The position numbers and the translations under genes are program-made. The notes beneath the pieces are model-generated. The model was not told where the DNA came from. It did not search any database and saw only the letters and a list, made by a program, of their open reading frames with translations. Below are positions 4,180 through 34,694 of a stretch of DNA of 64,000 nt, piece after piece. Every line of letters begins with the position of its first letter. The first letter of the stretch is position 1. Source of the stretch: Kribbella soli (lineage in GTDB: Bacteria; Actinomycetota; Actinomycetes; Propionibacteriales; Kribbellaceae); contig NZ_SJJZ01000001.1 in the NCBI RefSeq assembly GCF_004331345.1, forward strand, positions 2,356,001 to 2,420,000, read 5' to 3'.

Positions 4180-4971
4180 ATGAGCAAGGACAAGGACGAG
4201 AAGTCGCCGAACGGCGCTGGTTTCATCGCGGCCTGCATCGTCGTCGGTGCGGTCCTCATCTGCGGGATCGTGATCATCTTCGCGGGCGGCGGCCGCTCGA
4301 CCCACGCGATCGCCGCGGCGCCGCAGCCGGTCGACGCCGCCTCGGCTCAGCCCACGGACGAGCCGGCCTCGGCGCCTGCGACACCGGACGCTGGTCCGGC
4401 ACAGACCAACAGCTCCGGAGGCGAGCGGCGGACGGGTTCGTGCGGCCTTCCGGCCGGTGACCAGGCCGTTCCCGCCGAGACGCCGGCGGTCGACGGGTGG
4501 GAGGTCAGCCGGCGGGTCGTCGTACCGCGGTCCTCGACGTACGGACCGGGCACGACCGACTCCGACGGGTTCCGGCACTGCTTCGCGCATTCGCCGACCG
4601 GCGCCGTGTACGCGGCGTACAGCGCGATCGCGGCGATCGCGGACCAGAACAAGCTCGTCCCCACCGTGAAGAAGCTCATGGTTCCCGGGGCGGCGACCGA
4701 CAGCCTGCTCCGCCAAGCCGGTAGGGACGAGTCTTCGAGCGGCACCTCGACGGTCCAGGTCGTCGGCTACCGGGTCATCGACGCCGGGCCGGATCGAGTG
4801 AGCCTCATGCTCGCCATGCCCGTCGAGTCCGTGTACATGAGCGCCAACCTGACCCTGGTCTGGCACCAGGGCGACTGGCGGCTCCAGCCGCCACCTCCCG
4901 GCGAGGCCGTCGGAGCCCCCTTCTCCCAGCACCGCGACCTGAGCGACTTCGTGAAGTGGAGTGGTATCTGA
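4180..4971 (+). CDS. Single-pass membrane protein of a conjugation-like gene pair
   Basis: 263 residues from the ATG at 4180, preceded by GGGGAG; an in-frame upstream GTG at 4147 has no ribosome-binding site. It has a short charged N-terminus, one transmembrane helix (about residues 14-36), a Pro/Ala-rich linker to about residue 85, then a globular extracytoplasmic domain with two Cys (CGLPAGD and HCFAHS). That domain resembles the uncharacterised proteins found beside TrbL/VirB6-like genes in actinobacterial integrative elements. Its stop overlaps the next start as TGATG, so the pair is coupled. I see no other conjugation genes nearby. The function is inferred from context only. Confidence 0.6.
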   Translation: MSKDKDEKSPNGAGFIAACIVVGAVLICGIVIIFAGGGRSTHAIAAAPQPVDAASAQPTDEPASAPATPDAGPAQTNSSGGERRTGSCGLPAGDQAVPAETPAVDGWEVSRRVVVPRSSTYGPGTTDSDGFRHCFAHSPTGAVYAAYSAIAAIADQNKLVPTVKKLMVPGAATDSLLRQAGRDESSSGTSTVQVVGYRVIDAGPDRVSLMLAMPVESVYMSANLTLVWHQGDWRLQPPPPGEAVGAPFSQHRDLSDFVKWSGI

Positions 4972-6311
4972 TGTGCTCACCAATGGACATGAAGTGCCAC
5001 GTCGTCGAAGGCGTCCAGTCCGCTGCCAGCAACTGGATCGACAACGTCAATCGGATCTCAACGGACTTCTTCTCGACGATCCTCAACTCGCTGGCGACCT
5101 TCTGGGTCAAGCCGGAGACCCCGGTCTCGCTCGCGACCTCCAGCGACGGCGGCCAGACCTGGACCGACAGCAAGACGGTCGCGTTCGTCCAGGGGCAGAC
5201 CCTCAAGCTCACGCTGACGATCCTTGCCCTCGCGATCGTCATCGCCGGCATGCGGATGGCCTGGGAGCAACGAGCGAAGCCGGTCCAGGAGTTGCTCAAG
5301 GCGTTGTTGACCTTCGTCGTCGTCTGCGGGGCCGGGACGGCCACGGTGCAACTGCTGATCGCCTGGTCGGACGATTTCGCCCTGCAGGTCATCCACGCCG
5401 CCATCGGAGGCGACTCCTTCTCGTCGACGATGAAGGGCCTGCTGATGAATCCGTCCGAACACGGCAGCGGTGCGGGGATGACCTCGGTCCTGATGCTGAT
5501 CCTCCTCGGCCAGATCGCGGCGTGGGCGTCGCTGATCCAGATCGTGTTGATGCTGATTCGATCGGCGATGCTGGTGCTGCTCGGGTCGACGCTGCCGCTC
5601 GCAGCGGCGGCGACCAACACCGAGGTCGGCAAGGCGTGGTTCAAGAAGTACTGCGCGTGGACGCTGGGCTTCATCGCCTACAAGCCCGCGGCGGCGCTCA
5701 TCTACGCAGCCGCGATCAAGCTGAAGGAAGACAAGATGCTCGGCCAAGGCACCGGCCTGATGCAGTCCCTCACCGCCTTGATGATGATGCTGCTCGCCGT
5801 TCTCGCCATGCCGGCGCTGCTGCGCTTCGCGGTGCCACTCACCGCGGCCGTCGGGGGCGGGTCGGCCGGAATGGGTAGCACTGGTCCCGACACGGGTTCG
5901 CTGGCGTCGGGCGCGGTCAACGTCGGTTCGTCCGGCGGTGGTCGCGGCGGCAGTATCGGGGCGGCGTCGTCAGGCGGTGGTTCCGGGGCATCTGGGGCCG
6001 GGGCTTCGGGTGCGGGGGCGAGTGGTGCTGCGACGACTGGAGCCAAGGCGGCGGGGCTTGGTCCGGCTGGTGTTGCTGCGGCTGCTGCGCGCAAGGCTGC
6101 TGGTGCCTTCGCCGGGGCGGCATCGCACTCGGCGGGCGAAGCGGGTGGCGGCAGTTCGGGGGCGTCGATGCCTCGGTCGAGCGGCAGCCGGTCAGGCGGC
6201 GGCCGCGCCAACAGTCGAAGCTCCGGCGGACGGACCGGCCCCAGCCCGAGCCCCAAGGTCCCGGCCGGTTCCACTGCCGGTGGAGACACAGGACCCTCCG
6301 GCAACTGGTAA
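4971..6311 (+). CDS. TrbL/VirB6-like polytopic membrane protein
   Basis: 446 residues. The ATG at 4971 overlaps the upstream TGA and has GGAG nine bases before it. After a short Cys-containing N-terminus there is a region of about 70 residues, then at least five hydrophobic helices between about 80 and 300, including long runs such as MLILLGQIAAWASLIQIVLM and LMMMLLAVLAMPALL. The last 140 residues are low-complexity Gly/Ser/Ala. This layout (polytopic core plus disordered Gly/Ser tail) matches TrbL/VirB6-type inner-membrane channel components of type IV secretion in actinobacterial conjugative elements. There is no ATPase, relaxase or integrase in the window, so this is either a remnant or a small stand-alone export device. 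Confidence 0.65.
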   Translation: MCSPMDMKCHVVEGVQSAASNWIDNVNRISTDFFSTILNSLATFWVKPETPVSLATSSDGGQTWTDSKTVAFVQGQTLKLTLTILALAIVIAGMRMAWEQRAKPVQELLKALLTFVVVCGAGTATVQLLIAWSDDFALQVIHAAIGGDSFSSTMKGLLMNPSEHGSGAGMTSVLMLILLGQIAAWASLIQIVLMLIRSAMLVLLGSTLPLAAAATNTEVGKAWFKKYCAWTLGFIAYKPAAALIYAAAIKLKEDKMLGQGTGLMQSLTALMMMLLAVLAMPALLRFAVPLTAAVGGGSAGMGSTGPDTGSLASGAVNVGSSGGGRGGSIGAASSGGGSGASGAGASGAGASGAATTGAKAAGLGPAGVAAAAARKAAGAFAGAASHSAGEAGGGSSGASMPRSSGSRSGGGRANSRSSGGRTGPSPSPKVPAGSTAGGDTGPSGNW

Positions 6312-6326
6312 TCACCGGATGGAAGC

Positions 6327-7118
6327 ATGGCGGGCATGGGGCTGGAGCGGATTGCGTTGATTTCGGATGTGCACGGGAACCTGACGGCGTTGGAGGCGGT
6401 GCTCGCGGATATTGCGGGGCGTGGGATCGAGCGGGTGTTCAACCTCGGGGACTACGTGGGCAAGGGGCCGCGAGGGCAGGCGGTGGTGGACCGTTGCCAG
6501 GACGTCTGTGAGGTGAACATCCTCGGGAACTGGGATGACTTCCTGCCCGATCCCGAGCGTTCCGAGGACAGCGAAGGTCTGCGCTGGTGGAAGAACGAGC
6601 TCCGCGAAGACCAGTGGGCATGGTTGCGGGGGCTGCCGTTCTGCCACGACTTCCTGCTGAGCGGGCGGCAGGTCCGGCTGTTCCACGCGTCGTCGACGAG
6701 TGTTCATCACCGGATCGTTTTCGATCACGACGAAGCGCAGTACGACAGCTTCTTCGAGAACACCCCGGCGACCGGGGACGGACCGATACCGACGATCGTC
6801 GGGTACGCCGACATTCACGACCCGTTCTACGAGGAGGACCGCGGGCGGACGCTCTTCAACACCGGCTCGACCGGCAACAGCCTCGGTGATCCCACACCGG
6901 GGTACGTGATCCTCGAAGGGGTGATGGACTCACCCGATCCGGCGCCGCACTCGATCCAGTTTGTCCACGTCCCGTACGACGCGCACGCCGAACTGGCGAT
7001 CGCCCGCGATCTCGGGATGCCGGAGCTCGACGGCTACGAGGCCGAGATCATCCGTGGCGTCTACCGCACGACCTTCTACGCCGGCCGGGATCCGCGGTAC
7101 CACCGGCGTACGGCCTGA
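6327..7118 (+). CDS. Calcineurin-like metallophosphoesterase
   Basis: 263 residues with the metallophosphatase blocks: ISDVHGN (12-18), LGDYVGKGP (40-48), GNWDDF (67-72) and a late GYADIHDPF. Most YfcE/PrpE-type relatives have GN(H/W)D in the third block and GHTH in the last; here they are GNWD and GYADIH, so at least one metal-binding or catalytic His is shifted or lost. It probably hydrolyses a phosphomonoester or diester in the cytoplasm, but the substrate is not predictable. It begins 15 bases after the TrbL-like gene on the same strand and could be co-transcribed. A perfect DnaA box word TTATCCACA lies just after it (7137-7145). Confidence 0.82.
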   Translation: MAGMGLERIALISDVHGNLTALEAVLADIAGRGIERVFNLGDYVGKGPRGQAVVDRCQDVCEVNILGNWDDFLPDPERSEDSEGLRWWKNELREDQWAWLRGLPFCHDFLLSGRQVRLFHASSTSVHHRIVFDHDEAQYDSFFENTPATGDGPIPTIVGYADIHDPFYEEDRGRTLFNTGSTGNSLGDPTPGYVILEGVMDSPDPAPHSIQFVHVPYDAHAELAIARDLGMPELDGYEAEIIRGVYRTTFYAGRDPRYHRRTA

Positions 7119-7196
7119 TCGCGCTTGTCCCCAGGGTTATCCACAGCTGTGCATTGGGGGCTGTCAGCAACAATCTGCTCGGCGTTCACCTGCCGG

Positions 7197-7829
7197 TCAC
7201 TTGACCAGCAGGGCCTCGGATCCGACCGGCTTGTAGCCGACCGCCAGGAAGGCACGCAGCGAGGCCGCGTTCCCCGGCGTGATCTGCGCCCAGATCGAGG
7301 CGTCCGGCGGGATCAACGCCCGGGCCGCCAACGCCAGCCGGCGGCCGTTCCCCTGACCTCGGGCGTCCGGTGGTACCTCGATCGCGCACTCCAGCCGCCC
7401 GGCCAGGCCGCGGCCGATCACCACGAGCCCGCCGTGCGCGTCGCCGTACACCTGGACGTCGTCGCGGTGCCGCCACGCGCGCTCGACCCGTGGATGGTCG
7501 TGGTCGGTGAGTTCGGTCAGGCCGGCAAGCGGCGCCGGGTCGGTGACTGCCGGGGCGAGCAGCATCGCGTCGATCGCGTTGACCCGGCGGCCGGTGAATT
7601 CCTCGAGCGCGGCGAGGAACGGCGGGTTCGTCGGCGCGAAAGGATCGCCGTCCGGGACCCGCTCCGCGACCCAGGCCGGGTCGACGTCCGCGGCGATCAC
7701 GATGTGGCCGGTGAACGCGACCACGCACGACTCCCGCTCCGACGGCGCGGGTACGACGGTGAGCCCGAGATCCGGGGGCGGGAACACGCCGCGCTCGACG
7801 CCCCGCAGAATGTCAGCAAGAGATGTCAT
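7197..7829 (-). CDS. GNAT family N-acetyltransferase
   Basis: 210 residues from the ATG at 7829; an ATG nine bases upstream is an alternative. The C-terminal half carries the GNAT core: a beta strand LECAIEVPPDARGQGNGRRLALAA (the acetyl-CoA pyrophosphate loop Q/RGxGxGxR/L at about 150-162), followed by the ITPGNAASLRAFLAVGYKPVG end that is typical of the family. The N-terminal 100 residues look like a degenerate second GNAT domain. The substrate is unknown. It is divergent from the HMG-CoA lyase gene with 52 bp between them. Confidence 0.78.
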   Translation of the reverse strand: MTSLADILRGVERGVFPPPDLGLTVVPAPSERESCVVAFTGHIVIAADVDPAWVAERVPDGDPFAPTNPPFLAALEEFTGRRVNAIDAMLLAPAVTDPAPLAGLTELTDHDHPRVERAWRHRDDVQVYGDAHGGLVVIGRGLAGRLECAIEVPPDARGQGNGRRLALAARALIPPDASIWAQITPGNAASLRAFLAVGYKPVGSEALLVK

Positions 7830-7881
7830 CACGAGCATTGTCGCGGAGACCCCGTGCCATGCTCGAGGAGGAGGCAGCACG

Positions 7882-8808
7882 ATGCGCGAACCGCAGCTGG
7901 TGAAGGCCGAGGGACTGCCCGACCGGGTCACGATCTACGAGGTCGGGCCCCGCGACGGGCTGCAGAACGAGTCGGCGATCGTCGACGTCGCGGTCAAGGC
8001 CGAGTTCATCCGGCGACTGCTCGACGCGGGTCTGACGACGGTCGAGACGACGAGTTTCGTGCACCCGAAATGGGTCCCGCAGCTGGCCGATGCGGCCGAG
8101 CTGCTCGAACAGCTGGAGCTGCCGGAGGCGGTCCGCGCCCCGGTCCTGGTCCCGAACGAGCGCGGCCTCGACCGTGCGCTCGCGGCCGGTGTCCGTGAGA
8201 TCGCGATCTTCGCGAGCGCGACCGAGACGTTCGCGGCGAAGAACCTCAACTCCACGCTCGACGACCAGTTCGCGATGTTCACGCCGACGATCCGGCGTGC
8301 GCTCGACGAGGGTCTGTCGGTGCGTGGATACGTGTCGATGTGTTACGGCGACCCGTGGGAGGGCGACGTACCGATCGACCAGGTGGTCAAGGTCGGCGCA
8401 CGGCTGGTCGACCTCGGATGCCACGAACTGTCGCTCGGCGACACGATCGGCGTCGCGACGCCGGGCCAGGTGACTGCTCTGATCGCCGCCTTCGGTGCGG
8501 CCGGCGTGGGTGTGGACAAGCTGGCGGTGCATTTCCACGACACCTACGGGCAGGCGCTCGCCAACACCCTCACCGCGCTGCGCGACGGCGTGACCACGGT
8601 CGACAGCTCCGCCGGCGGGCTCGGAGGCTGCCCGTACGCCGAGAGCGCGACCGGCAACCTCGCCACCGAGGACCTCCTCTGGCAACTCAACGGCCTCGGC
8701 ATCGAAACCGGCGTTGACCTGGAGAAACTCGTCACCACCAGCACCTGGATGGCCGAACAACTGGGCAAGCCCTCCGCAAGCCGAGTAGTCCAGGCCCTGG
8801 CCGGCTGA
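7882..8808 (+). CDS. Hydroxymethylglutaryl-CoA lyase family protein
   Basis: 308 residues from the ATG at 7882, with a very strong GAGGAGGAGG at 7865-7874. The TIM-barrel contains GPRDGLQNE (22-30), the metal-binding VHFHDTYGQ (about 214-222) and the HMG-CoA lyase signature GGLGGCPYA near residue 245, with the catalytic-loop Cys at 250. The 'ATGNLATED' after the signature is also diagnostic. It cleaves 3-hydroxy-3-methylglutaryl-CoA to acetyl-CoA and acetoacetate in leucine or isoprenoid-acid catabolism. No other leucine catabolism genes are adjacent. Confidence 0.9.
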   Translation: MREPQLVKAEGLPDRVTIYEVGPRDGLQNESAIVDVAVKAEFIRRLLDAGLTTVETTSFVHPKWVPQLADAAELLEQLELPEAVRAPVLVPNERGLDRALAAGVREIAIFASATETFAAKNLNSTLDDQFAMFTPTIRRALDEGLSVRGYVSMCYGDPWEGDVPIDQVVKVGARLVDLGCHELSLGDTIGVATPGQVTALIAAFGAAGVGVDKLAVHFHDTYGQALANTLTALRDGVTTVDSSAGGLGGCPYAESATGNLATEDLLWQLNGLGIETGVDLEKLVTTSTWMAEQLGKPSASRVVQALAG

Positions 8809-20989: not shown

Positions 20990-21406
20990 TCAGAGCGGCT
21001 TGACCCAGCGTGACCACTCCGGCTGCGGTGCGTAGCCGGCGGTGGACCAGACGCGGTGCGCGGGGGCGTTGTCGTCGAGCACCATCGCGTCCGCGCGGGT
21101 TCCGCCGTACGTCAGGAAGCGGGCCTCGGCGCGGGTGACGAGTTCGCGGCCGATGCCCTGGCGGCGATGGGTCGGCGCGACCGCCAGGCGGTACAGGTGG
21201 CAGCGCCAGCCGTCCCAGCCGACGATGACCGAGCCGACGACAACCTCGTCGTCGACGGCAAGGATCAGCGCCTCCGGGTCGCGCTCGACCAGCCGCCGGA
21301 CGGCGTCGGCCGAGTCCGGCGGGCGGTGCGAATCCTCGGCGGCGGTCGCCCAGAACGTCAGTACCGCGTCGATATCGGTCGCCGTGGCGTTGCGGTAGGC
21401 AACCAT
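20990..21406 (-). CDS. GNAT family N-acetyltransferase
   Basis: 138 residues, a compact single GNAT domain. The strand-loop LYRLAVAPTHRRQGIGRELVTRAEARF (about 70-96) holds the acetyl-CoA-binding RRxGIG; the end GGTRADAMVLDDNAPAHRVWSTAGY is typical. The start codon overlaps the stop of the GlxA-like regulator by one base (TGATG), so the two are translationally coupled. Coupling to a regulator that senses a small metabolite suggests the acetyltransferase modifies the same kind of molecule; this is inference. Confidence 0.88.
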   Translation of the reverse strand: MVAYRNATATDIDAVLTFWATAAEDSHRPPDSADAVRRLVERDPEALILAVDDEVVVGSVIVGWDGWRCHLYRLAVAPTHRRQGIGRELVTRAEARFLTYGGTRADAMVLDDNAPAHRVWSTAGYAPQPEWSRWVKPL

Positions 21407-22359
21407 CAGCCGGTGGTCTGGAAGGTTCGGCGGTAGTCCTGTGGTGGCACGCCCACCACCCTACGGAAGTGGTGCCGCAGCAGTGCGGCCGTCCCGAATC
21501 CTGATTCGGTGGCGATCTGCTCGATACCCATCCGGGTCTGTTCGAGCAGGGTGCGAGCGCGCAGCACGCGTTGGGTGGTGACCCATTTGAGTGGCGTCGT
21601 ACCGGTCTCGGCGACGAAGCGGCGGGCGAAGGTGCGCTCAGACATCTGCGCGCGCCGGGCCAGTGCGGGCACGGTGTGCTCGATGGTCAGGTTGTCGACC
21701 ATCCAGTCGAGGACCTGCTGCAGGCTCTCCCCGGACGACTCCGGCACCGGTACCTCGACGTACTGCCGCTGGCCTCCGTCACGCTGCGGCGGGACCACCA
21801 TCCGGCGGGCGATCCGGGTCGCGACCGCGCTGCCGAGCTCACGGCGTACCAAGTGCAGAGCGGCGTCGATCCCGGCTGCGGTGCCGGCGCTGGTGATGAT
21901 GTTGCCGTCGTCGACGAACAGCACGTCCGGGTCGAGTTTCGCGGCCGGGAACTGGTCGTGGAACTTGTCGATGTAGCGCCAGTGCGTGGTGCAGGCCCGG
22001 CCCTCGAGCAGGCCGGCGGCACCGAGCACGAACGCGCCCGAGCAGACCGTCAGCAGGATCGCGCCGCGCGCCTCGGCCCGCCGGAGCGCGTCCAGGATCC
22101 GCTCGTCGTACGCGTGCCGCCAGGTGGTGGCCGGGATGCCGATCAGGTCGGCGTCCTCGAGCTCCTCGAGCCCGTACGGCGCGACCACCTGGGAGTGGCT
22201 GCTGGTCTCCATCGGGACGCCCGGCGTGGCCGCGCACACCTTGAAGTCGAAGGGCGGAACGCCGTCGTCGGTGCGGTCGATTCCGAAGACCTCGGCCAGG
22301 ACGCCGAACTCGAACAGGGCGACGTCCTCCATCAGGACGACGGCGATTTTCTGCAGCAT
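21406..22359 (-). CDS. GlxA/FtrA-like regulator: DJ-1/PfpI domain fused to AraC HTH
   Basis: 317 residues. The N-terminal DJ-1/PfpI-like domain (about 1-180) has TVCSGAFVLGAAGLLEGRACTTHW, with the Cys at the usual nucleophile position. The C-terminal AraC domain (about 220-312) has two HTH units, ending GFGTAALLRHHFRRVVGVPPQDYRR. Members are activators that respond to small metabolites (for example GbdR-type or FtrA). The divergent gap holds nested palindromes and the small membrane protein gene beyond it is a candidate target, as is the coupled GNAT gene. Confidence 0.9.
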   Translation of the reverse strand: MLQKIAVVLMEDVALFEFGVLAEVFGIDRTDDGVPPFDFKVCAATPGVPMETSSHSQVVAPYGLEELEDADLIGIPATTWRHAYDERILDALRRAEARGAILLTVCSGAFVLGAAGLLEGRACTTHWRYIDKFHDQFPAAKLDPDVLFVDDGNIITSAGTAAGIDAALHLVRRELGSAVATRIARRMVVPPQRDGGQRQYVEVPVPESSGESLQQVLDWMVDNLTIEHTVPALARRAQMSERTFARRFVAETGTTPLKWVTTQRVLRARTLLEQTRMGIEQIATESGFGTAALLRHHFRRVVGVPPQDYRRTFQTTG

Positions 22360-27582: not shown

Positions 27583-28722
27583 TCAGCTCCGCCGTCCGGC
27601 CCAGTGGGGTACGCCACCGTCGGGCAGCGTCGCCTCGACGAGCCAGCCCGCGGCGGCCGGTCCCGCGACCAGCTGACCACCCAGGTCCTGCACGCGCTCG
27701 CGTAACCCAGCGAGACCGCGTCCGGTACCGGTCAGCAGCGGTCGTGCTTGCACCGCTGCACCGTTCTCCACACGCACGCTCAGGTCCCGGCCGGACCCGG
27801 TCACCACGACCCGGACCGCAGCACCGGGTGCGTACCGGAGCGCGTTCGTGAGGCTCTCCTGCACCACGCGGAACGCCGCGTGCGCCACCGGCGCCGACAC
27901 CCCGTCGCGCGACCCTTCGAACCGGCACGACACGTCCAGCCCGTTCCGCGCCGCCCGGGTCACCACCTCCTCGATCAGCGACAGATCCGGGCCACCGACC
28001 TCGATCCCACCCAGCAGCTCGACGAGACGCCGCAGGTCGTCGTGCCCCTGCCGTGCCGACTCGGCCAGCCCCGCGAACACCTGCGACGTCCCGACCGGAT
28101 CCCGATCGACCAGCCGCTGTCCGGCCGCCGCCTGGATCACCATCACGCTGATCGCATGCCCGACGATGTCGTGCAGTTCCGACGCGATCCGGGCCCGTTC
28201 GTGCCGTACGGCGAGCTCCGCGAACAGCTCGCGCTCCTCCTCGAGCTCGCGACCGCGCCGCGTCAGCTCCTCGGCCGACTCCCGGTGCAACCGCAGTACC
28301 GTGCCCGCGAGGAAGCTCGGCACGCTGAACATGATCAATGGCACCTCGCTGGTGTCGCCGAGGATCACCCACAGCACAACGAGGTACGCCGCCAACGTCC
28401 CCGCGGCGACCCAGGCCGACCACCCGGACCATCCCAACGCGGCGACCAGCGTCACCAGTGCGAGGATCGCGAACGCCGTGTCCGGAAACCACCCGTAGTC
28501 GGCCAGCACGGCCGGCACCAACCACAGCGCGGCACCGACGACGGCGACCACCCGCGGATGACTCCGCCACCACAACAGCGTCAGCCCGCCCGCCAGCAGC
28601 GCAGCCGTGAAGACGTTCCCGACCACCGTCGTCGGCCAGCCGTGGATCGCCGTCGGCAGGGCAATCACCGCGGCGACCATCACCACGATCCCCACTTGTT
28701 CGAGTCTGCGTACGGCGTTCAT
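27583..28722 (-). CDS. NarL-type sensor histidine kinase
   Basis: 379 residues from the ATG at 28722; a TTG at 28731 overlapping the upstream TGA is an alternative. Five or six N-terminal helices (about 10-145), a coiled-coil linker rich in Glu/Arg (about 147-175), then the HisKA_3 dimerisation helix with phosphoacceptor His184 in RARIASELHDIVGHAISV, and an HATPase domain with VVQESLTNALRYAPG and the G-box GTGRGLAGLRERV. The kinase is complete. It presumably phosphorylates the divergent response regulator at 30623. It is the third gene of a minus-strand run starting with two paralogous membrane proteins. Confidence 0.9.
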   Translation of the reverse strand: MNAVRRLEQVGIVVMVAAVIALPTAIHGWPTTVVGNVFTAALLAGGLTLLWWRSHPRVVAVVGAALWLVPAVLADYGWFPDTAFAILALVTLVAALGWSGWSAWVAAGTLAAYLVVLWVILGDTSEVPLIMFSVPSFLAGTVLRLHRESAEELTRRGRELEEERELFAELAVRHERARIASELHDIVGHAISVMVIQAAAGQRLVDRDPVGTSQVFAGLAESARQGHDDLRRLVELLGGIEVGGPDLSLIEEVVTRAARNGLDVSCRFEGSRDGVSAPVAHAAFRVVQESLTNALRYAPGAAVRVVVTGSGRDLSVRVENGAAVQARPLLTGTGRGLAGLRERVQDLGGQLVAGPAAAGWLVEATLPDGGVPHWAGRRS

Positions 28723-28727
28723 TGCGC

Positions 28728-29885
28728 TCAACCGACCACCGGAAGCTGAGCGACGGCACCCGCCCGGCCTTTGGTGACCTTCACGTCGACCGAACCACCC
28801 AGCAACTTCGCCCGTTCCCTGGCCCGGGCCACGGCTGCCTTCAGATCGGCAGCCTCGCCGACCTGCCCGTTCACGCGGATCTCGAGCGCGTCGGCCTCGA
28901 ACCGGACCGTCACCACGATCGGCGCATCGGCCTGATCGGCCAGCGCCGTCACCAGATGCTCGACGATCCGGTACGCCGAAAGCTCCACCGTCGCAGGCAA
29001 TGCCCGTGGGTCACCCGTCACGACCAGCTGCGAATGCGCCGTACGGAGCCGCGCGAGCAACGCGTCGAGATGGGCGACCGTCGGCGTCGGCGCGAACGCG
29101 ACGTCGTCACCGCGCAGCAGCCCGACGATCTCCCGCATGTCGTCCAACGTCTGCCGGCTGCCCGACTCGATCGACTCCAGCACCGCCCGCGCCTCGGCGG
29201 GCGGCAGGCCGTCCGCGGACTCGGCGGCCGTGGTCAGGTCGGCGAGCCGCTCCTGCAGCAATCCGTCGAGCTGCCGCGAGAGTCGGGCCCGGTCGCCGGC
29301 AACGTCGAACGCTGCCCGCTCGTCCCGCAACTGCCGCAACTCCGCTTCCCGATTCGCCAGCTCCAGGTTCAGCGCCGTACGCCGACGAGCGGCCAGGCCG
29401 ACCCCGAACACGATGCAGACGATCGGCAGCGCCAGGGCGATCGCGCCCGGGCCGGTGGTCGCGTCGATCACCAGCACGAGCACGGTCAGTACGACGCTGA
29501 GCCCGCAGACGATCCAGGCCGTTGCGCGCTTGCTCGCCATCCCCCCGAGGAACGCGAGCACGAACGCGAGCGGGAGACCCGCGCCGCAGCGCGTCACCCA
29601 GCCGAACAGGAAGACGTGCAGCGCCATCGCCAGCACGGACACCGTGGCGACGGCGACGATGCCTCGCCGCCACCACAGCACCGGAATCGTCGCTGCCGCG
29701 AAGACCGGGATCATCCAGAGCGAGTGCGAGCTCTGTGTGTGCGCCATCGATCCCTCCGCGATGGCGGCGCGCACCTGGGCGTCGGACATCTGGACGTTCT
29801 CCAGCATCAGCAGGACGCCGAGCACGGTGAGGCCGCCCGCGATCCCCCAGTCGCGAAGCTTGATACCCCTGAAGACCTCACTCAT
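28728..29885 (-). CDS. Pseudo-histidine kinase: membrane domain plus degenerate kinase core
   Basis: 385 residues from the ATG at 29885. The first 165 residues form five or six helices. A dimerisation-like region follows, but where active kinases have RELHD it reads RLSRQLDGLLQERL: the phosphoacceptor His is replaced by Asp207. The ATPase region keeps the overall fold (LSAYRIVEHLVTALADQADAP, ARERAKLLGGSVDVKV) but the N-box Asn is replaced and the G-box is altered (no GxGxG). It is therefore unlikely to autophosphorylate or bind ATP normally. It lies five bases upstream of the complete kinase, and may act as a sensing or dimer partner. Confidence 0.78.
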   Translation of the reverse strand: MSEVFRGIKLRDWGIAGGLTVLGVLLMLENVQMSDAQVRAAIAEGSMAHTQSSHSLWMIPVFAAATIPVLWWRRGIVAVATVSVLAMALHVFLFGWVTRCGAGLPLAFVLAFLGGMASKRATAWIVCGLSVVLTVLVLVIDATTGPGAIALALPIVCIVFGVGLAARRRTALNLELANREAELRQLRDERAAFDVAGDRARLSRQLDGLLQERLADLTTAAESADGLPPAEARAVLESIESGSRQTLDDMREIVGLLRGDDVAFAPTPTVAHLDALLARLRTAHSQLVVTGDPRALPATVELSAYRIVEHLVTALADQADAPIVVTVRFEADALEIRVNGQVGEAADLKAAVARARERAKLLGGSVDVKVTKGRAGAVAQLPVVG

Positions 29886-29914
29886 GACTCGGCTCCCCAC
29901 CCCAGCAGCCCCGC

Positions 29915-30454
29915 TCAGGCGACCGTACGCGCCGGCGCCGATCCGGCGGTCTGCTGCTTCGTGACTCGATTCTGCACGAGCAGACCGGCCCCGTAGAAGA
30001 GCGCGATACCGGGCAGTGCGATGGGCAGCGCGCCCGCGACCGAGTCGATCGACGAGTCCCGGAACAGCGCCAGGAGCTGGACGATCACGATGCCCGCGAG
30101 GCCGATCGCGTGGTTGCGCCAGGCGCCGGCGAACCGGGCGACGGCGTACGCCAGTGCGAAGCTCAGCGGGAGGACGATGCCGCAGCGCGTCAGCCAGCCG
30201 AACGCGATCACGTGAGCCAGCGTGGTGATGGCCGTGATGGCGACGACTGCGAGCACGTTGCGCCGGCGCCACAGGATCGGCAAGGTGACCAGCAGGAACG
30301 CCGGCACCATCGCCCAGGTCGTCGTCGACACCGGGTGCGGCAGGCTGGTGTCCGCGGACCCGACGTTCTCGTACATCAACACCACACCCCCGGCCGTCAT
30401 CAGGCCGGCCAGTACGTAGTCGAGGGGCCGGATGCCCTTGAAGATCTCGCTCAT
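29915..30454 (-). CDS. Membrane protein paralogous to the pseudo-kinase sensor domain
   Basis: 179 residues. It is clearly a duplicate of the N-terminal half of the next gene: both begin MSE(I/V)F(K/R)GI, both have a first helix ending in (Y/L)ENV, and both share FGW(L/V)TRCG..LPL(S/A)F in the third helix. It ends after the last helix with a short basic tail and has no kinase part. The gap to the pseudo-kinase start is 29 bp, so they are co-transcribed. Probable role: sensor or modulator of the adjacent two-component system (inference). The upstream gap (168 bp) is shared with the divergent response regulator gene. Confidence 0.75.
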   Translation of the reverse strand: MSEIFKGIRPLDYVLAGLMTAGGVVLMYENVGSADTSLPHPVSTTTWAMVPAFLLVTLPILWRRRNVLAVVAITAITTLAHVIAFGWLTRCGIVLPLSFALAYAVARFAGAWRNHAIGLAGIVIVQLLALFRDSSIDSVAGALPIALPGIALFYGAGLLVQNRVTKQQTAGSAPARTVA

Positions 30455-30559
30455 CGATCTGTCCTTTCGCTTCGGGTCCGTCTGAACCCCCATGTCGCGA
30501 AGGTAGATTCCGGCCGCTGTCGCCCACGTCTGGCGCAAGGACGATCCCCAGGACGGGTC

Positions 30560-30600
30560 GTCATCCGCGCGGATGACCCGGATCGTCCGCACGGATGACC
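30560..30600. promoter_or_regulatory. Palindrome and direct repeat upstream of the response regulator
   Basis: An 18-bp perfect palindrome GTCATCCGCGCGGATGAC occupies 30560-30577. Its right half-site word GGATGACC (30571-30578) recurs in direct orientation at 30593-30600, 22 bp further (two helical turns). The array ends 22 bases before the GTG of the response regulator, so it probably overlaps that gene's promoter. NarL-type regulators often bind paired heptamers near their own promoter (family knowledge). Confidence 0.7.
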
Positions 30601-30622
30601 GACGGACAGGCACAATCACCCT

Positions 30623-31282
30623 GTGGCCGAGAAGATCCGCGTCCTGGTGGCCGACGACCAGAGGCTCGTGCGTACCGGGTTCCGGGTGATCCTGGAGGCC
30701 GAGGGCGACATCGAGGTGGTCGCCGAGGCCGATACCGGCACGGAGGCGATCCGGCAGGCCCAGCTGACCGCGCCGGACGTGATCCTGATGGACATCCGGA
30801 TGCCCGAGCTCGACGGGCTGTCCGCGACCGAGCAGATCCGCCGGCAGCCGGACCCGCCGACGATCATCGTGCTCACCACCTTCGACCAGAACGAGTACGT
30901 CTACCGCGCACTGCGGGCCGGTGCCGCCGGTTTTCTGCTCAAGGACAGCCCGTCGACCCGGCTGATCGCGGCCGTCCGCGCCGCGGCGACCGGTGACTCG
31001 CTGATCGAGCCGGCCATCACCCGGCGGCTGGTCGAGCGCTTTGCCGAGCCCGTCGTACCCCAGGGGTTGCCGGCCGAGCTCCAGGCGCTGACCGAGCGTG
31101 AGCTCGAGGTACTGCGGTTGATCGCGCGCGGACTGTCCAACGCGGAGATCGCGGCCGAACTCATGGTCGCCGACACGACCGTGAAGACGCACGTCGCCCG
31201 ACTGCTGACCAAGCTCGGGGTCCGGGACCGGGTGCAAGCGGTCGTGGTCGCCTACGAGACTGGATTCGCCAACCGGCGCTGA
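30623..31282 (+). CDS. NarL/FixJ family response regulator
   Basis: 219 residues from a GTG. Receiver domain with acidic pocket DD (11-12), phospho-site Asp57 in ILMDIRMPELDG, switch Thr around 85 and Lys107 in FLLKDSP. The C-terminal LuxR HTH (about 150-210) has LTERELEVLRLIARGLSNAEIAAELMVADTTVKTHV. All catalytic residues are intact. It is divergent from the sensor operon and is the obvious partner of the complete kinase at 27583-28722. The 168-bp shared gap carries a palindrome and direct repeat that may be its own binding site. Confidence 0.93.
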   Translation: MAEKIRVLVADDQRLVRTGFRVILEAEGDIEVVAEADTGTEAIRQAQLTAPDVILMDIRMPELDGLSATEQIRRQPDPPTIIVLTTFDQNEYVYRALRAGAAGFLLKDSPSTRLIAAVRAAATGDSLIEPAITRRLVERFAEPVVPQGLPAELQALTERELEVLRLIARGLSNAEIAAELMVADTTVKTHVARLLTKLGVRDRVQAVVVAYETGFANRR

Positions 31283-31361
31283 ACAACAGGTGAAAGACCT
31301 TCCGATTAGGGTCGGCGAGACGTTAGTTTGTCACAGCTGTCCGTCCGTTGGGGAGGCTCCT

Positions 31362-34300
31362 GTGTCGCTCGTTCGTGCTTTGACTACAGCTGTAGGCGTT
31401 GGCGGCCTGCTGGCCGGCGTACTCGTCGATCCGGCCCTCGCCCAGACCGACGGGATCACCGACGCCGCGATCGCCGAGACCGGCGTACTGACGTCACGCG
31501 ACGACAGCCCGGTGGCGCCCGGCGTGAACTACACGTCGTTCGAGCGCCTGGACGCGAAGGGCTGGCAGCGCGGCGACATCCTCGACACCGACCTGGACAA
31601 GCACGGCGTGACCGTCGACCTGGTCAACAACGGCGGGAAGGTGTCAGGCGGTCAGCCGCTGAGCCAGCAACTCGCCCGCAAGGGTGCGATCGCCGGCGTG
31701 AACGGTGACTTCTTCGACATCAACGACACCACCGCGCCGCTCGGCGTCGGAGTCGAGCAGAGCGGCAAGCTGCTCAACGCGCCCGCCGCCGGCCACAACG
31801 ACACCGCGGTGATCGGCAAGGACGGACTCGGCAAGATCGCCCAGCTGTTCCTGCAAGGTACGGCGACCGACGACGACGCCACCAAGCTCGAGCTGACCAA
31901 CCTCAACTCGCCGACCGTCAACGCCGGCGGAATCGGCCTCTACACCCCGGAGTGGGGCGATGCGGCCCGGACCCGGACCGTGGACGGCCTGCCGACCGTG
32001 CGCGAAGTGATCCTTCGCGACGGTGTGGTCGTCTCCTCGGCCACCACTCCGGCCACCACCCCGTTGGCAGCAGGAGAGCAGGCGTTGATCGGCCGCGAGG
32101 CCGGCGCCGACGCGCTCGCCGCGTTCGAGGTCGGCGACAAGGTCGGCGTCGAGTACGGCCTGCGCCCGGACGCGGGTGAAGTGGCCGCCGCCGTCAGCGG
32201 CAACTACCAGCTCGCGAAGGACGGGAAGGTCCCGGACACCGTGCCGGACGCCGACCTCGCGCCGCGCACCGCGATCGGGTTCGACGCCGACGGCAGCCGG
32301 ATGATCCTGCTCACCGTCGACGGCCGGGCCACCGGTTCGCGGGGTCTGTCGCTGAAGGAAATGGGCCAGCTGATGATCAGCCTCGGGGCTGACGACGCGC
32401 TCAACCTGGACGGCGGCGGCTCCTCGACGATGCTCGCCCGGACCCCGGGCAAGGTCGCGCCGGAGGTCGTGAACGACCCGTCCGACGGCGGCGAGCGGCT
32501 GATCCCGAACGGACTCGGCCTGGTCCCGGTCAAGGGCTCCGGCCAGCTCAAGGGCTTCCGCGTCGAGGCCGTCGGCACGTCCGAGGAGAGCCCCGACACC
32601 GACCTCTCCCGCAGCTCCCGCGTCCTCACCGGACTCAGCCGGGTCCTCAGCGCCACCGGCCACGACGAGACCTACGCGCCCGCGACCGGTACGCCGTTCT
32701 GGTACGCCGGCAGCAACGTCCGCGTCGACCAGCAAGGTGTGGTCACCGGCCGCCGCGCGGGCGACGCGATCGTCACCGCGACCCGTGGTGCGGCGAACGG
32801 AAGGTTCCCGATGACAGTCCTCGGTACGCCGACCCGCCTGGCGCCCTCGACCCGGCAGGTATCGCTCGCCGACTCCGCCGCCAAGGGCTTCTTCGAGGTC
32901 GACGGGTACGACGCCGACGGGTTCTCCACCTGGATCGAGCCGCGCGACGTCAAGCTCAGCTACGACCCGGCGCTGGTGAAGATCGTTGCGAAGGGCAATG
33001 GTTTCGAGGTCAACGCGGTGAGCAGCGAAGCCGTCTCGGCCGTGGTGACCGCGACCGTCGGCACGCTCAGCACGCAGCTCAGCATCACGGCCGGCCTGAC
33101 CAGCACCGTGGTCGACGAGCTCGACGACGTCACCAAGTGGGCAGCGAACGCCGTACCGGCCGGTGCCGCGACGGCGACGCGGTCTGCTGCGGAAGGGCAT
33201 GACGGCGGGCAGGCGATCGCGCTCGACTACTCGCTGACCGGCAGCACTGCCACGCGAGCGGCGTACCTCTCGCAGACGCCGCAACAGACGTTGCCGGGGC
33301 AGCCGCAGAAGCTCGGCGCCTGGGTGTACGGCGACGGCAAGGGAGCGTGGCTGCGCGCCAACGCGTACGACGCGGCAGGTGGTACGGCGCAGACGCTCAA
33401 CCTGGCCCCGACGGTCGACTGGACCGGGTGGAAGTACGTCGAGGCGGACATCCCGCCCGGTCTGACGATGCCGCTGCGCTTCTGGCGGATCTACGTCGTT
33501 GAGACCTCGCCGACCCGGCAGTACGCGGGCCGGATCGTCGTCGACGACCTGACCGTCCGCAGCGCGCCGCCGGTGACGATGGACCCGCCGGCGAAGGTCA
33601 TCGATCCGATGGTCGTGACCGACGGGACCGTGACCACGAGCGGCCGCTGGCGGTTCGCGGTGATGTCGGACGCGCAGTTCACCTCCGACGACCCGAACTC
33701 GGACTACGTGAAGCAGGCCCGCCGGACGATCCGCGAGGCGCTCGCGCAGAAGCCCGAGTTCCTGGTGATCAACGGCGACTTCGTGGACCGCGCGTTCGGT
33801 CCGGACATCGCGCTGGCCAAGCAGATCATCGACGAGGAGGTGGCCGGCAAGGTGCCGGTGCACTACGTGCCGGGCAACCACGAGACCTACGGGCCGGGCG
33901 ACCTGTCCGAGTGGAAGAAGGTCTTCGGTAACGCGACCAGCACGTTCGACCACTTGGGTACTCGGTTCGTACTGCGGGACTCGTCGCTCGGATCGCTGCG
34001 CGCCGGAGGGTTCGACCAGATCCTCGATCTGCGCAAGCAGCTCGCCGACGCCGCGACGAACAAGTCGATCAAGAACGTCGTGGTGATGGCGCACCACCCG
34101 ATCGACGACCCGTCGCCGACGCAGAACTCGCAGCTCGGGGACCGCAAGGAAGCCGCGATGATCGTGAAGTGGCTGGCCGACTTCCGCGCCTCGACCGGCA
34201 AGGGCGCGGCCTACATGGCGGCGCACGCGGGCACCTTCGCCGCGACCCGTACCGACGGCGTACTGCTCCCGCTGACCGGCAACTCCGGCAAGAGCCCCGC

Positions 34301-34694
34301 GGCCGCACCGGACGCCGGCGGCTTCACCGGGTGGGCGCTGGTCGGGATCGCGGCCCGCCCGTCGACGCAGCCGTGGTTCCAGGTGGAGCTCCGCCCGCAC
34401 GTCGACTCCCTCGAGCTGACCGCGCCGGCTTCCCTGCGCCGCGGCCAGACCGGCACGGCGGCCGCAACCGTCGTACAGGAGAACCGGCGGATCCCCGTGG
34501 CGTTCCCGGTGTCGGCTGACTGGTGGGGTTCGTCCACGCTGCACATCGGCCCAGCAAAGACCGCCCCGTTCTGGGCAGTCGCCTCCTACGACCCGTCCAC
34601 CGGCGTAGTGACTGCACTACGCCCTGGCACGGCCCAGCTGGGAGTAACGGTGAACGGGGTCTCCAAGAGCGCGACGCTGCAGGTCGGTTGGTAG
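31362..34694 (+). CDS. Secreted phosphodiester glycosidase fused to a metallophosphatase
   Basis: 1110 residues from the GTG at 31362, with GGGGAGG five bases upstream and an immediate Sec signal peptide (VRALTTAVGVGGLLAGVLVDPALAQ, cleaved near residue 29). An NAGPA/DUF2233 domain (about 60-385) has NGDFFD (about 114) and NLDGGGSSTM (about 348). A region with Ig-like and beta-sandwich features (about 395-740) follows, then a calcineurin-type domain (about 760-1000) with VMSDAQF, NGDFVDR, GNHET (about 836) and MAHHPID, and a C-terminal Big-type domain. It probably hydrolyses sugar-phosphodiester envelope polymers such as teichoic acids; substrate is inferred. No cell-wall anchor is visible. 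Confidence 0.88.
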   Translation: MSLVRALTTAVGVGGLLAGVLVDPALAQTDGITDAAIAETGVLTSRDDSPVAPGVNYTSFERLDAKGWQRGDILDTDLDKHGVTVDLVNNGGKVSGGQPLSQQLARKGAIAGVNGDFFDINDTTAPLGVGVEQSGKLLNAPAAGHNDTAVIGKDGLGKIAQLFLQGTATDDDATKLELTNLNSPTVNAGGIGLYTPEWGDAARTRTVDGLPTVREVILRDGVVVSSATTPATTPLAAGEQALIGREAGADALAAFEVGDKVGVEYGLRPDAGEVAAAVSGNYQLAKDGKVPDTVPDADLAPRTAIGFDADGSRMILLTVDGRATGSRGLSLKEMGQLMISLGADDALNLDGGGSSTMLARTPGKVAPEVVNDPSDGGERLIPNGLGLVPVKGSGQLKGFRVEAVGTSEESPDTDLSRSSRVLTGLSRVLSATGHDETYAPATGTPFWYAGSNVRVDQQGVVTGRRAGDAIVTATRGAANGRFPMTVLGTPTRLAPSTRQVSLADSAAKGFFEVDGYDADGFSTWIEPRDVKLSYDPALVKIVAKGNGFEVNAVSSEAVSAVVTATVGTLSTQLSITAGLTSTVVDELDDVTKWAANAVPAGAATATRSAAEGHDGGQAIALDYSLTGSTATRAAYLSQTPQQTLPGQPQKLGAWVYGDGKGAWLRANAYDAAGGTAQTLNLAPTVDWTGWKYVEADIPPGLTMPLRFWRIYVVETSPTRQYAGRIVVDDLTVRSAPPVTMDPPAKVIDPMVVTDGTVTTSGRWRFAVMSDAQFTSDDPNSDYVKQARRTIREALAQKPEFLVINGDFVDRAFGPDIALAKQIIDEEVAGKVPVHYVPGNHETYGPGDLSEWKKVFGNATSTFDHLGTRFVLRDSSLGSLRAGGFDQILDLRKQLADAATNKSIKNVVVMAHHPIDDPSPTQNSQLGDRKEAAMIVKWLADFRASTGKGAAYMAAHAGTFAATRTDGVLLPLTGNSGKSPAAAPDAGGFTGWALVGIAARPSTQPWFQVELRPHVDSLELTAPASLRRGQTGTAAATVVQENRRIPVAFPVSADWWGSSTLHIGPAKTAPFWAVASYDPSTGVVTALRPGTAQLGVTVNGVSKSATLQVGW

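Follow-up and report, generated by a model that had tools for sequence, protein, structure and literature searches.

Few pseudo-histidine kinases appear in the literature consulted here: DivL, RocA, FasC, and a laboratory variant of ChrS. In group A Streptococcus, RocA has six putative transmembrane segments, a DHp domain, and a CA domain, and it interacts with the real membrane kinase of the CovS/CovR system; its histidine is not needed, and a form without the CA domain complements when it is overexpressed (PMC7028121). In the same organism, the two kinase-like membrane proteins FasB and FasC and the regulator FasA are co-transcribed, FasB and FasC form a heterodimer in two-hybrid assays, and FasC has been proposed to be a pseudo-kinase (PMC12675982). 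DivL of Caulobacter is a pseudo-histidine kinase whose phosphoacceptor His is replaced throughout the family and which acts on CckA (PMC4211667). In Corynebacterium glutamicum, ChrS_CA-fs, a laboratory-evolved pseudokinase form of the heme-sensing ChrS, raises output via HrrS (PMC9491836). Other background is available for DesK (PMC6879721) and in reviews (PMC12471899, PMC12189002).

Here we describe a locus from Kribbella soli, within a 64,000-nucleotide stretch of the genome that we call the window. It encodes a response regulator (D), a small membrane protein (A), a membrane-bound pseudo-histidine kinase (B), and an intact membrane histidine kinase (C). Like RocA, B is a pseudo-kinase with DHp and CA domains and, in its predicted model, six N-terminal helices. 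The gene for B lies beside that of a membrane kinase. Unlike B, RocA keeps the histidine of its DHp domain (H246), and the available text on RocA describes no membrane-only paralogue such as A (PMC7028121; the kinase families are set side by side here by description). As in the Fas system, B, C, and D are encoded together as two kinase-like membrane proteins and one regulator. But FasC keeps a histidine that is probably phosphorylated while FasB gives the kinase domain, whereas C has both and B has neither, and the text available for Fas describes no A-like protein (PMC12675982). DivL has Tyr at the His site (Ala in one species) where B has Asp; it otherwise keeps the H, N, G1, F, and G2 motifs, while the N and G boxes of B are lost; and it has PAS sensor domains and works in the CckA-ChpT-CtrA relay (PMC4211667). 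Given the Asp and the lost boxes, we rejected the idea that B is an orthologue of DivL. Like ChrS_CA-fs, B is an actinobacterial pseudo-kinase that is paired with a second kinase, but ChrS_CA-fs arose from a laboratory frameshift and still has its His (PMC9491836). Finally, a third protein acts on the kinase in the LiaF-LiaS-LiaR three-component system, but LiaF is presented as an inhibitor protein and not as a kinase homologue (PMC7191749).

B resembles pseudo-kinases of the RocA, FasC, and DivL kind in that it is a conserved kinase fold without the catalytic residues and is encoded, as in the Fas system, with a competent kinase and a regulator. A first, sequence-only reading of this locus had stated that no equivalent was described, which was too strong given the RocA-CovS, FasBC, and DivL-CckA pairs and the ChrS laboratory pseudokinase, at least as these appear in the available texts. 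In the open-access literature (subscription journals were mostly outside our search), we found no description of a comparable pseudo-kinase that occurs naturally in Actinobacteria.

Organization of the locus

The features of the locus are given in Table 1. On the minus strand the order is A, B, C, with gaps of 29 nt between A and B and 5 nt between B and C. We call these proteins membrane proteins on the basis of hydrophobic stretches and, for B and C, of helices in the predicted models. The extent of the cassette comes from blastn of positions 4608-8288 of one Kribbella locus (L079) against another (L073), converted to window coordinates (+22999). Unless stated otherwise, we counted over 39 distinct loci, of which 13 come from the genus and 26 from elsewhere; duplicate loci (L110-L116 and L141-L144), identified by the length of the contig and their place on it, were left out.

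Table 1. Features of the D-A-B-C locus, in coordinates of the window
Feature	Position	Strand	Remark
D: NarL/FixJ-type response regulator, receiver + LuxR HTH, 219 aa	30623..31282	+	divergent from A-B-C
A: membrane-only protein, 179 aa, weakly DUF7134-like	29915..30454	-	homologue of B's membrane half
B: pseudo-histidine kinase, 385 aa	28728..29885	-	membrane half ~1-172, DHp ~186-259, degenerate CA ~268-385
Asp207 codon (GAC) of B, in place of the phosphoacceptor His	29265..29267	-	counted from the start of B at 29885
C: intact membrane histidine kinase, 379 aa from ATG	27583..28722	-	HisKA_3 + HATPase_c, motif SELHDIVGH
Presumed D operator, perfect palindrome GTCATCCGCGCGGATGAC	30560..30577		between D and A
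Presumed D operator, second copy	30582..30599		22 bp beyond the first copy
Extent of the D-A-B-C cassette	27607..31287		blastn block common to unlinked copies in the genus

B has lost the catalytic residues of a histidine kinase

By its sequence features, B appears to be a pseudo-histidine kinase of the HisKA_3/DesK type. Its match to HisKA_3 scores 20.2 bits, which is below the curated Pfam cut-off of 24, and 28 of the 34 B proteins that we scanned match this family at E <= 0.01. HATPase_c does not match the B protein of the window up to E 1 and does not match any of the 34 scanned proteins at E <= 0.01. There was no match to B in NCBIfam.

The sequence-only reading had noted two defects in B, an Asp in place of the phosphoacceptor His and a degraded ATP lid, and both are borne out across the family. 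Residue 207, which lines up with the His in the DesK motif RDLHD, is Asp in all 39 loci. The next position is Gly in 34 of the 39, while its counterpart next to the His is acidic in both C and DesK. The DHp domain around this site is very well kept, with R199, D207, R213, L214, R244, and R251 in 39/39 loci. As for the lid, V338 and E357 bound a stretch of 20 residues in all 38 B proteins that have a CA domain, as compared to 24-28 residues for its counterpart in C (39/39), and in an alignment of B with C, the glycines G332, G334, and G336 of C face non-glycines of B. In the same 38 proteins, the position of the N-box Asn is occupied by T (17), G (6), N (5), A (4), D (2), E (2), K (1), or S (1), and the five proteins that have the Asn are from Nocardioidaceae and Intrasporangiaceae. 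Seven other residues of the CA domain (Y305, R306, V308, E309, E357, R358, and G364) are kept in 38/38. When we aligned 34 of the 39 B proteins, which are 43-93% identical to B from the window, 37 columns were invariant, and Asp207 is among them.

In an AlphaFold2 (AF2) model of B (pLDDT 82, pTM 0.51), the N-terminal half contains six helices, and the rest consists of a long DHp hairpin and an alpha/beta sandwich resembling a CA domain. Among the best 50 of 690 structural matches to this model, the top PDB match is DesK (E 3.2e-07, TM-score normalised by target 0.46), and DivL (4q20) is present as well. The query-normalised TM-scores of these 50 are low (0.21-0.28), as is to be expected when only the cytoplasmic part of B is matched. 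The structures of the H188V and H188E mutants of DesK are also among these 50. When an acidic residue takes the place of the His, it can mimic phospho-His. Overall, we infer from its sequence that B is catalytically inactive.

C and D appear complete, and A is an old relative of B

The locus had also been read as containing a complete kinase and an intact response regulator, and the domain matches agree: C matches HisKA_3 at 52.3 bits and HATPase_c at 28.3 bits, and D matches Response_reg at 101.9 bits and GerE at 73.8 bits. C has the His, the N box, and the G box, along with the HATPase_c domain, that are expected of a HisKA_3 histidine kinase, and H184, D185, H189, N293, G332, G334, and G336 are present in C from all 39 loci. 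A profile alignment of B and C has a probability of 99.4% over residues 63-385 of B. We found no support for the idea that B is a duplicate of C. In a tree of 17/39 B proteins, 18/39 C proteins, and 12 other kinases, the kinase half of B forms one clade with a support of 100 and a long stem, C forms one clade with a support of 92, and the deep branches do not clearly place B and C as sisters.

The sequence-only reading took A for a truncated duplicate of the membrane half of B. The homology holds, but the recent truncation does not. A and the membrane half of B share the motifs MSE(I/V)F and FGW(L/V)TRCG, are 41% identical in the window, and are linked by profile-profile comparison with a probability of 100% (E 4.8e-47). 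In a tree of the membrane halves (38 A and 39 B rows), A and B separate, except that one long-branched A protein (L145_A) falls on the B side, which raises the number of changes required by the tree from one to two. On the strength of this tree we reject a recent truncation; A and B are paralogous lineages, both of them old. The match of A to DUF7134 in Pfam scores 20.8 bits, below the cut-off of 27, and 14 of the 32 scanned A proteins match this family at E <= 0.01; its other Pfam matches are at chance level, and its sole NCBIfam match up to E 1 has an E of 0.058. By profile-profile comparison, we detected neither kinship between the membrane domains of A and C (probability 2.4%) nor a membrane fold shared by the two. 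A contact between them in the membrane would then not be a simple heterodimer of paralogues.

The four genes form a cassette

Full-length orthologues of B are present in 13 of 38 genomes from the genus, including the window's, at 75-100% identity and without internal stops, so B is not a chance reading frame. A (E <= 1e-3), C (1e-40), and D (1e-80) are found in exactly the same 13 of the 38 genomes; in one of these (G005), the match to A comes in two pieces. Across the order, the A profile finds 19 of 391 genomes, which are these 13 and six more. Two exact 8-residue patterns, run against the GTDB collection to give a lower bound, found at least 31 loci; these are in Kribbella, Actinoplanes/Paractinoplanes, Micromonospora, Marmoricola, Aeromicrobium, Humibacillus, Phycicoccus, Tessaracoccus, and some metagenome-assembled genomes. 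The named families besides that of Kribbella are the Micromonosporaceae, Nocardioidaceae, Intrasporangiaceae, and Propionibacteriaceae. Among 394 genomes sampled from the class, the B profile picks out 3 at E 1e-45 (at most four candidates were scored per genome shown). One of these three, from another family of the class (G442, locus L157, 4070-7709), encodes a distant B with the Asp (DLDGY), followed by C and a regulator, all on one strand, and we found no separate match to A beside this copy of B. We did not find B on plasmid records (E limit 1e-30).

The arrangement of three membrane proteins is conserved: D diverging from A, B, and C, in that order, is found in 38 of the 39 distinct loci, from Kribbella and four other named actinobacterial families. 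B adjoins C in all 39, and B, C, and D are together in all 39, although the frame of C is broken in one (L077). The frame of B is open in 13/13 orthologues from the genus and in 39/39 distinct loci, with one (L140) ending after the DHp domain. In short, evolution has kept a pseudo-kinase and its membrane-only relative alongside one kinase that appears active and one response regulator. The exception to the order is locus L146 (G229), in which we did not find A. In the place of A (6437-7219) there is an unrelated-looking frame of 261 amino acids with hydrophobic stretches and no Pfam match; possibly it is a different membrane partner. As A was found neither in L146 nor beside the copy in G442, some B-C pairs can do without A.

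The flanking genes, for a rhodanese and for a NAGPA/metallophosphoesterase protein, are present in 38/38 genomes. Where the cassette lies between them (nine genomes), they are 3.7-3.8 kb apart, measured between matched stretches. In the 25 genomes that lack the cassette they are just 93-495 bp apart, and in four genomes with the cassette elsewhere (G014, G016, G030, and G037) they are 154-356 bp apart. In blastn comparisons of ~14 kb stretches around the unlinked copies (E 1e-20), the alignable block is ~3.65-3.7 kb and contains the four genes only. There are at least four contexts for the cassette in the genus, including one common to G014 and G037 and different ones in G016 and in G030. So the earlier suggestion that A and B were inserted into a two-component locus does not hold: D-A-B-C as a whole is one four-gene signalling cassette of ~3.7 kb. 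Beyond the cassette, no neighbour recurs convincingly across families in the 30 of 39 loci surveyed, with two large clusters of overlapping frames set aside and small clusters judged from the printed start of their sequences.

The NAGPA/metallophosphoesterase neighbour in the window (31290-34694) is a large protein with NAGPA phosphodiester-glycosidase and calcineurin-like phosphoesterase parts. The copy in G031 matches in two pieces on overlapping stretches.

Selection and natural variants

We computed pairwise Nei-Gojobori dN/dS for 12 of the 13 genomes from the genus (G005 was omitted because of its broken C); the pairs are not independent, so the medians are descriptive. The median is 0.31 for A and 0.11 for D. 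For B it is 0.18 overall, with 0.28 for the membrane part, 0.11 for DHp, and 0.11 for CA, and for C it is 0.22 overall, with 0.30 for the membrane part, 0.10 for DHp, and 0.18 for CA. The DHp domain of B is about as constrained as that of C, and the CA domain of B is more constrained than that of C. Selection on the dead domains of B is thus strongly purifying and of much the same strength as on the live domains of C.

Two natural variants are worth describing. In Tessaracoccus caeni (L140, 7633-9415), B ends after the DHp domain: the membrane half and the DHp domain with its Asp are kept, and we found no remnant of the CA domain of B by tblastn. This suggests that the membrane half and DHp are the working core of B. 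C in this locus matches its profile only from position 84, and the part upstream looks shortened or diverged. In Kribbella antiqua (G005, L077, the same as L116; 5920-8717), the frame of C is broken near codon 93-105, B is intact, and A has an internal deletion of 24 residues. Either B is not absolutely dependent on C, or this module is decaying, or there is an error in the assembly. An intact B beside a broken C is a poor fit to the idea that B is needed only to serve C.

The divergent promoter

The region between D and A contains the pattern GTCMTCC-N4-GGANGAY. Of 38 intergenic regions (all but that of L146), 28 match this pattern at 13/13 specified positions, and in 34 at least 12 positions match; the region in L122, which was truncated to 67 bp, scores 8. 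Among 7,600 mononucleotide shuffles, none match at 13 positions and 0.03% match at 12, but there is some circularity in this comparison, because the pattern was derived from these same sequences and the members of the genus are related to each other. A stricter version of the pattern is present at the cassette promoter in 12 of the 13 genomes with the cassette (G011 is the miss). Across these 13 genomes it has 47 listings, with palindromes listed twice, of which 14 are at the cassette promoter; a backward control gave 5. Of the 47, 19 carry one of the first two off-cassette site sequences, assuming that these are in the same genes, and 14 are others. A looser pattern has 136 listings in the window's genome, as compared to 50 for its control.

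We looked for a wider regulon of D and did not find one. Three further sites that we examined in the window's genome are all inside reading frames, of 224 aa (V-I-H-M-D-D), 341 aa (V-I-L-L-E-D), and 317 aa, so we have no target of D outside of its own operon among them. The last of these, at 22324-22341, is an exact match to the looser pattern within the first codons of the 317-aa frame (21406-22359, minus strand); this match is probably due to chance, although it lies near a start codon. Because the palindrome is kept at the D-A promoter and the other sites examined are within genes, it is likely that D autoregulates through a conserved and nearly private palindrome. We found no match to a sigma-70-like promoter or to a terminator at the divergent promoter. 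Between the palindromes and the start of A (30527-30545, minus strand) lies ATCGTCCTTGCGCCAGACG, and many of the intergenic regions have something similar; perhaps it is a third half-site or a promoter element.

How might B act?

We lean, by a little, towards the idea that A and B are co-receptor subunits in the membrane that act on the kinase C by direct contact. C would be the only competent kinase and would phosphorylate D, while A and B would be non-catalytic. B would keep a dimerising DHp bundle and would contact C through its membrane helices, through a mixed B-C DHp bundle, or both, and a signal perceived by A and B would set the balance between the kinase and phosphatase activities of C. 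The invariant Asp would keep the site in B permanently non-phosphorylatable and might mimic phospho-His. D would autoregulate the divergent promoter through the palindromic operator. The contact of A and B with C, the control of C, and the co-transcription of A, B, and C are what we infer.

By analogy, a RocA/Fas-like co-receptor of C seems to be the most economical reading of B, with A. It is favored by the presence of the four genes in the same 13/38 genomes, by their order in 38/39 loci, and by their occurrence as a unit at unlinked sites. It is also favored by the contrast between Asp in B and the catalytic residues in C, each in 39/39 loci, and by the low dN/dS of B. The single clades formed by B and by C, the fold of the B model with DesK as its nearest match, and the operator pattern speak for it too. 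The B of Tessaracoccus, which has no CA domain, fits as well, as RocA without its CA domain also works when overexpressed, according to the available text (PMC7028121). On the other side, a truncated ChrS pseudokinase gave no contact with HrrS in the two-hybrid results that were available (PMC9491836), and we count this against direct contact between B and C. The broken C of Kribbella antiqua, the copies without A, and the failure to find a target of D outside of its own operon among the sites examined also weigh against the co-receptor reading. That A and B tune C, as the sequence-only reading had it, seems plausible. Since several bacterial families have kept B next to a working kinase, B probably serves C as a built-in regulator.

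More ambitiously, the cassette might be mobile and encode an actinobacterial four-component receptor of a class not yet described, with the membrane-only A, the B with its invariant Asp as a built-in mimic of phospho-His, and the active C in a hetero-oligomer. Sensing and catalysis would then be split among three membrane proteins, and B would permanently hold one half of the catalytic bundle as if it were phosphorylated. This picture is tentative, and we would sooner bet against it than for it.

Information could instead flow in the reverse direction, as with DivL: the DHp domain of B might dock phosphorylated D, or another regulator, and feed back to C. The strong conservation of the DHp domain around Asp207, with its six residues in 39/39 loci, would be consistent with this, and the available text on DivL reports that, without kinase or phosphatase activity, it binds DivK~P like a normal kinase-regulator pair (PMC4211667). 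But DivL retains the N and G boxes (PMC4211667), which B does not have. Also, the first DHp helix of B (LDGLLQERL) is unlike the strongly conserved helix of C (LHDIVGHAISVMVIQAAAG). In a kinase it is the first DHp helix that faces the regulator, so the sequence of B does not suggest that it docks the same regulator. We consider this reversal to be unlikely.

Still less probable, in our view, is that A and B form a membrane signalling unit of their own, with some other cytoplasmic partner, and are merely encoded together with C and D. It would make sense of the membrane domain of A, which has no detectable kinship to that of C, and of the intact B in Kribbella antiqua, where C is broken. It does not sit well with the strict co-occurrence of the four genes in the same 13/38 genomes, or with B adjoining C in every locus (just 5 nt apart in the window), or with a cassette that is present as a unit at unlinked sites, or with the finding that no other neighbour recurs convincingly.

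We doubt even more strongly that B is an enzyme of another kind, such as a non-canonical kinase or a nucleotide-binding switch. B does have a predicted CA-like fold, with seven residues kept in 38/38 proteins and strong purifying selection on this domain, but the position of the N-box Asn is variable, the lid is shortened, HATPase_c is matched by 0/34 proteins at E <= 0.01, and one lineage has no CA domain at all. As for B being a functionless paralogue in decay, the loss of its catalytic residues might suggest this, but we reject it as extremely improbable, given Asp207 in 39/39 loci and a dN/dS of 0.11 in the dead domains.

Implications

The cassette adds to a short list of systems. B is a naturally conserved actinobacterial family from the DesK/NarX-like kinases; its orthologues are 43-93% identical, and its phosphoacceptor site is invariably acidic. 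What differs from the known pairs is the Asp at the dead site and the stand-alone membrane paralogue. Nature has already provided some experiments, namely a species in which B lacks the CA domain, as well as the loci without A. How a dead kinase controls a live one should be directly testable in this compact four-gene system, with its own promoter as a probable reporter.
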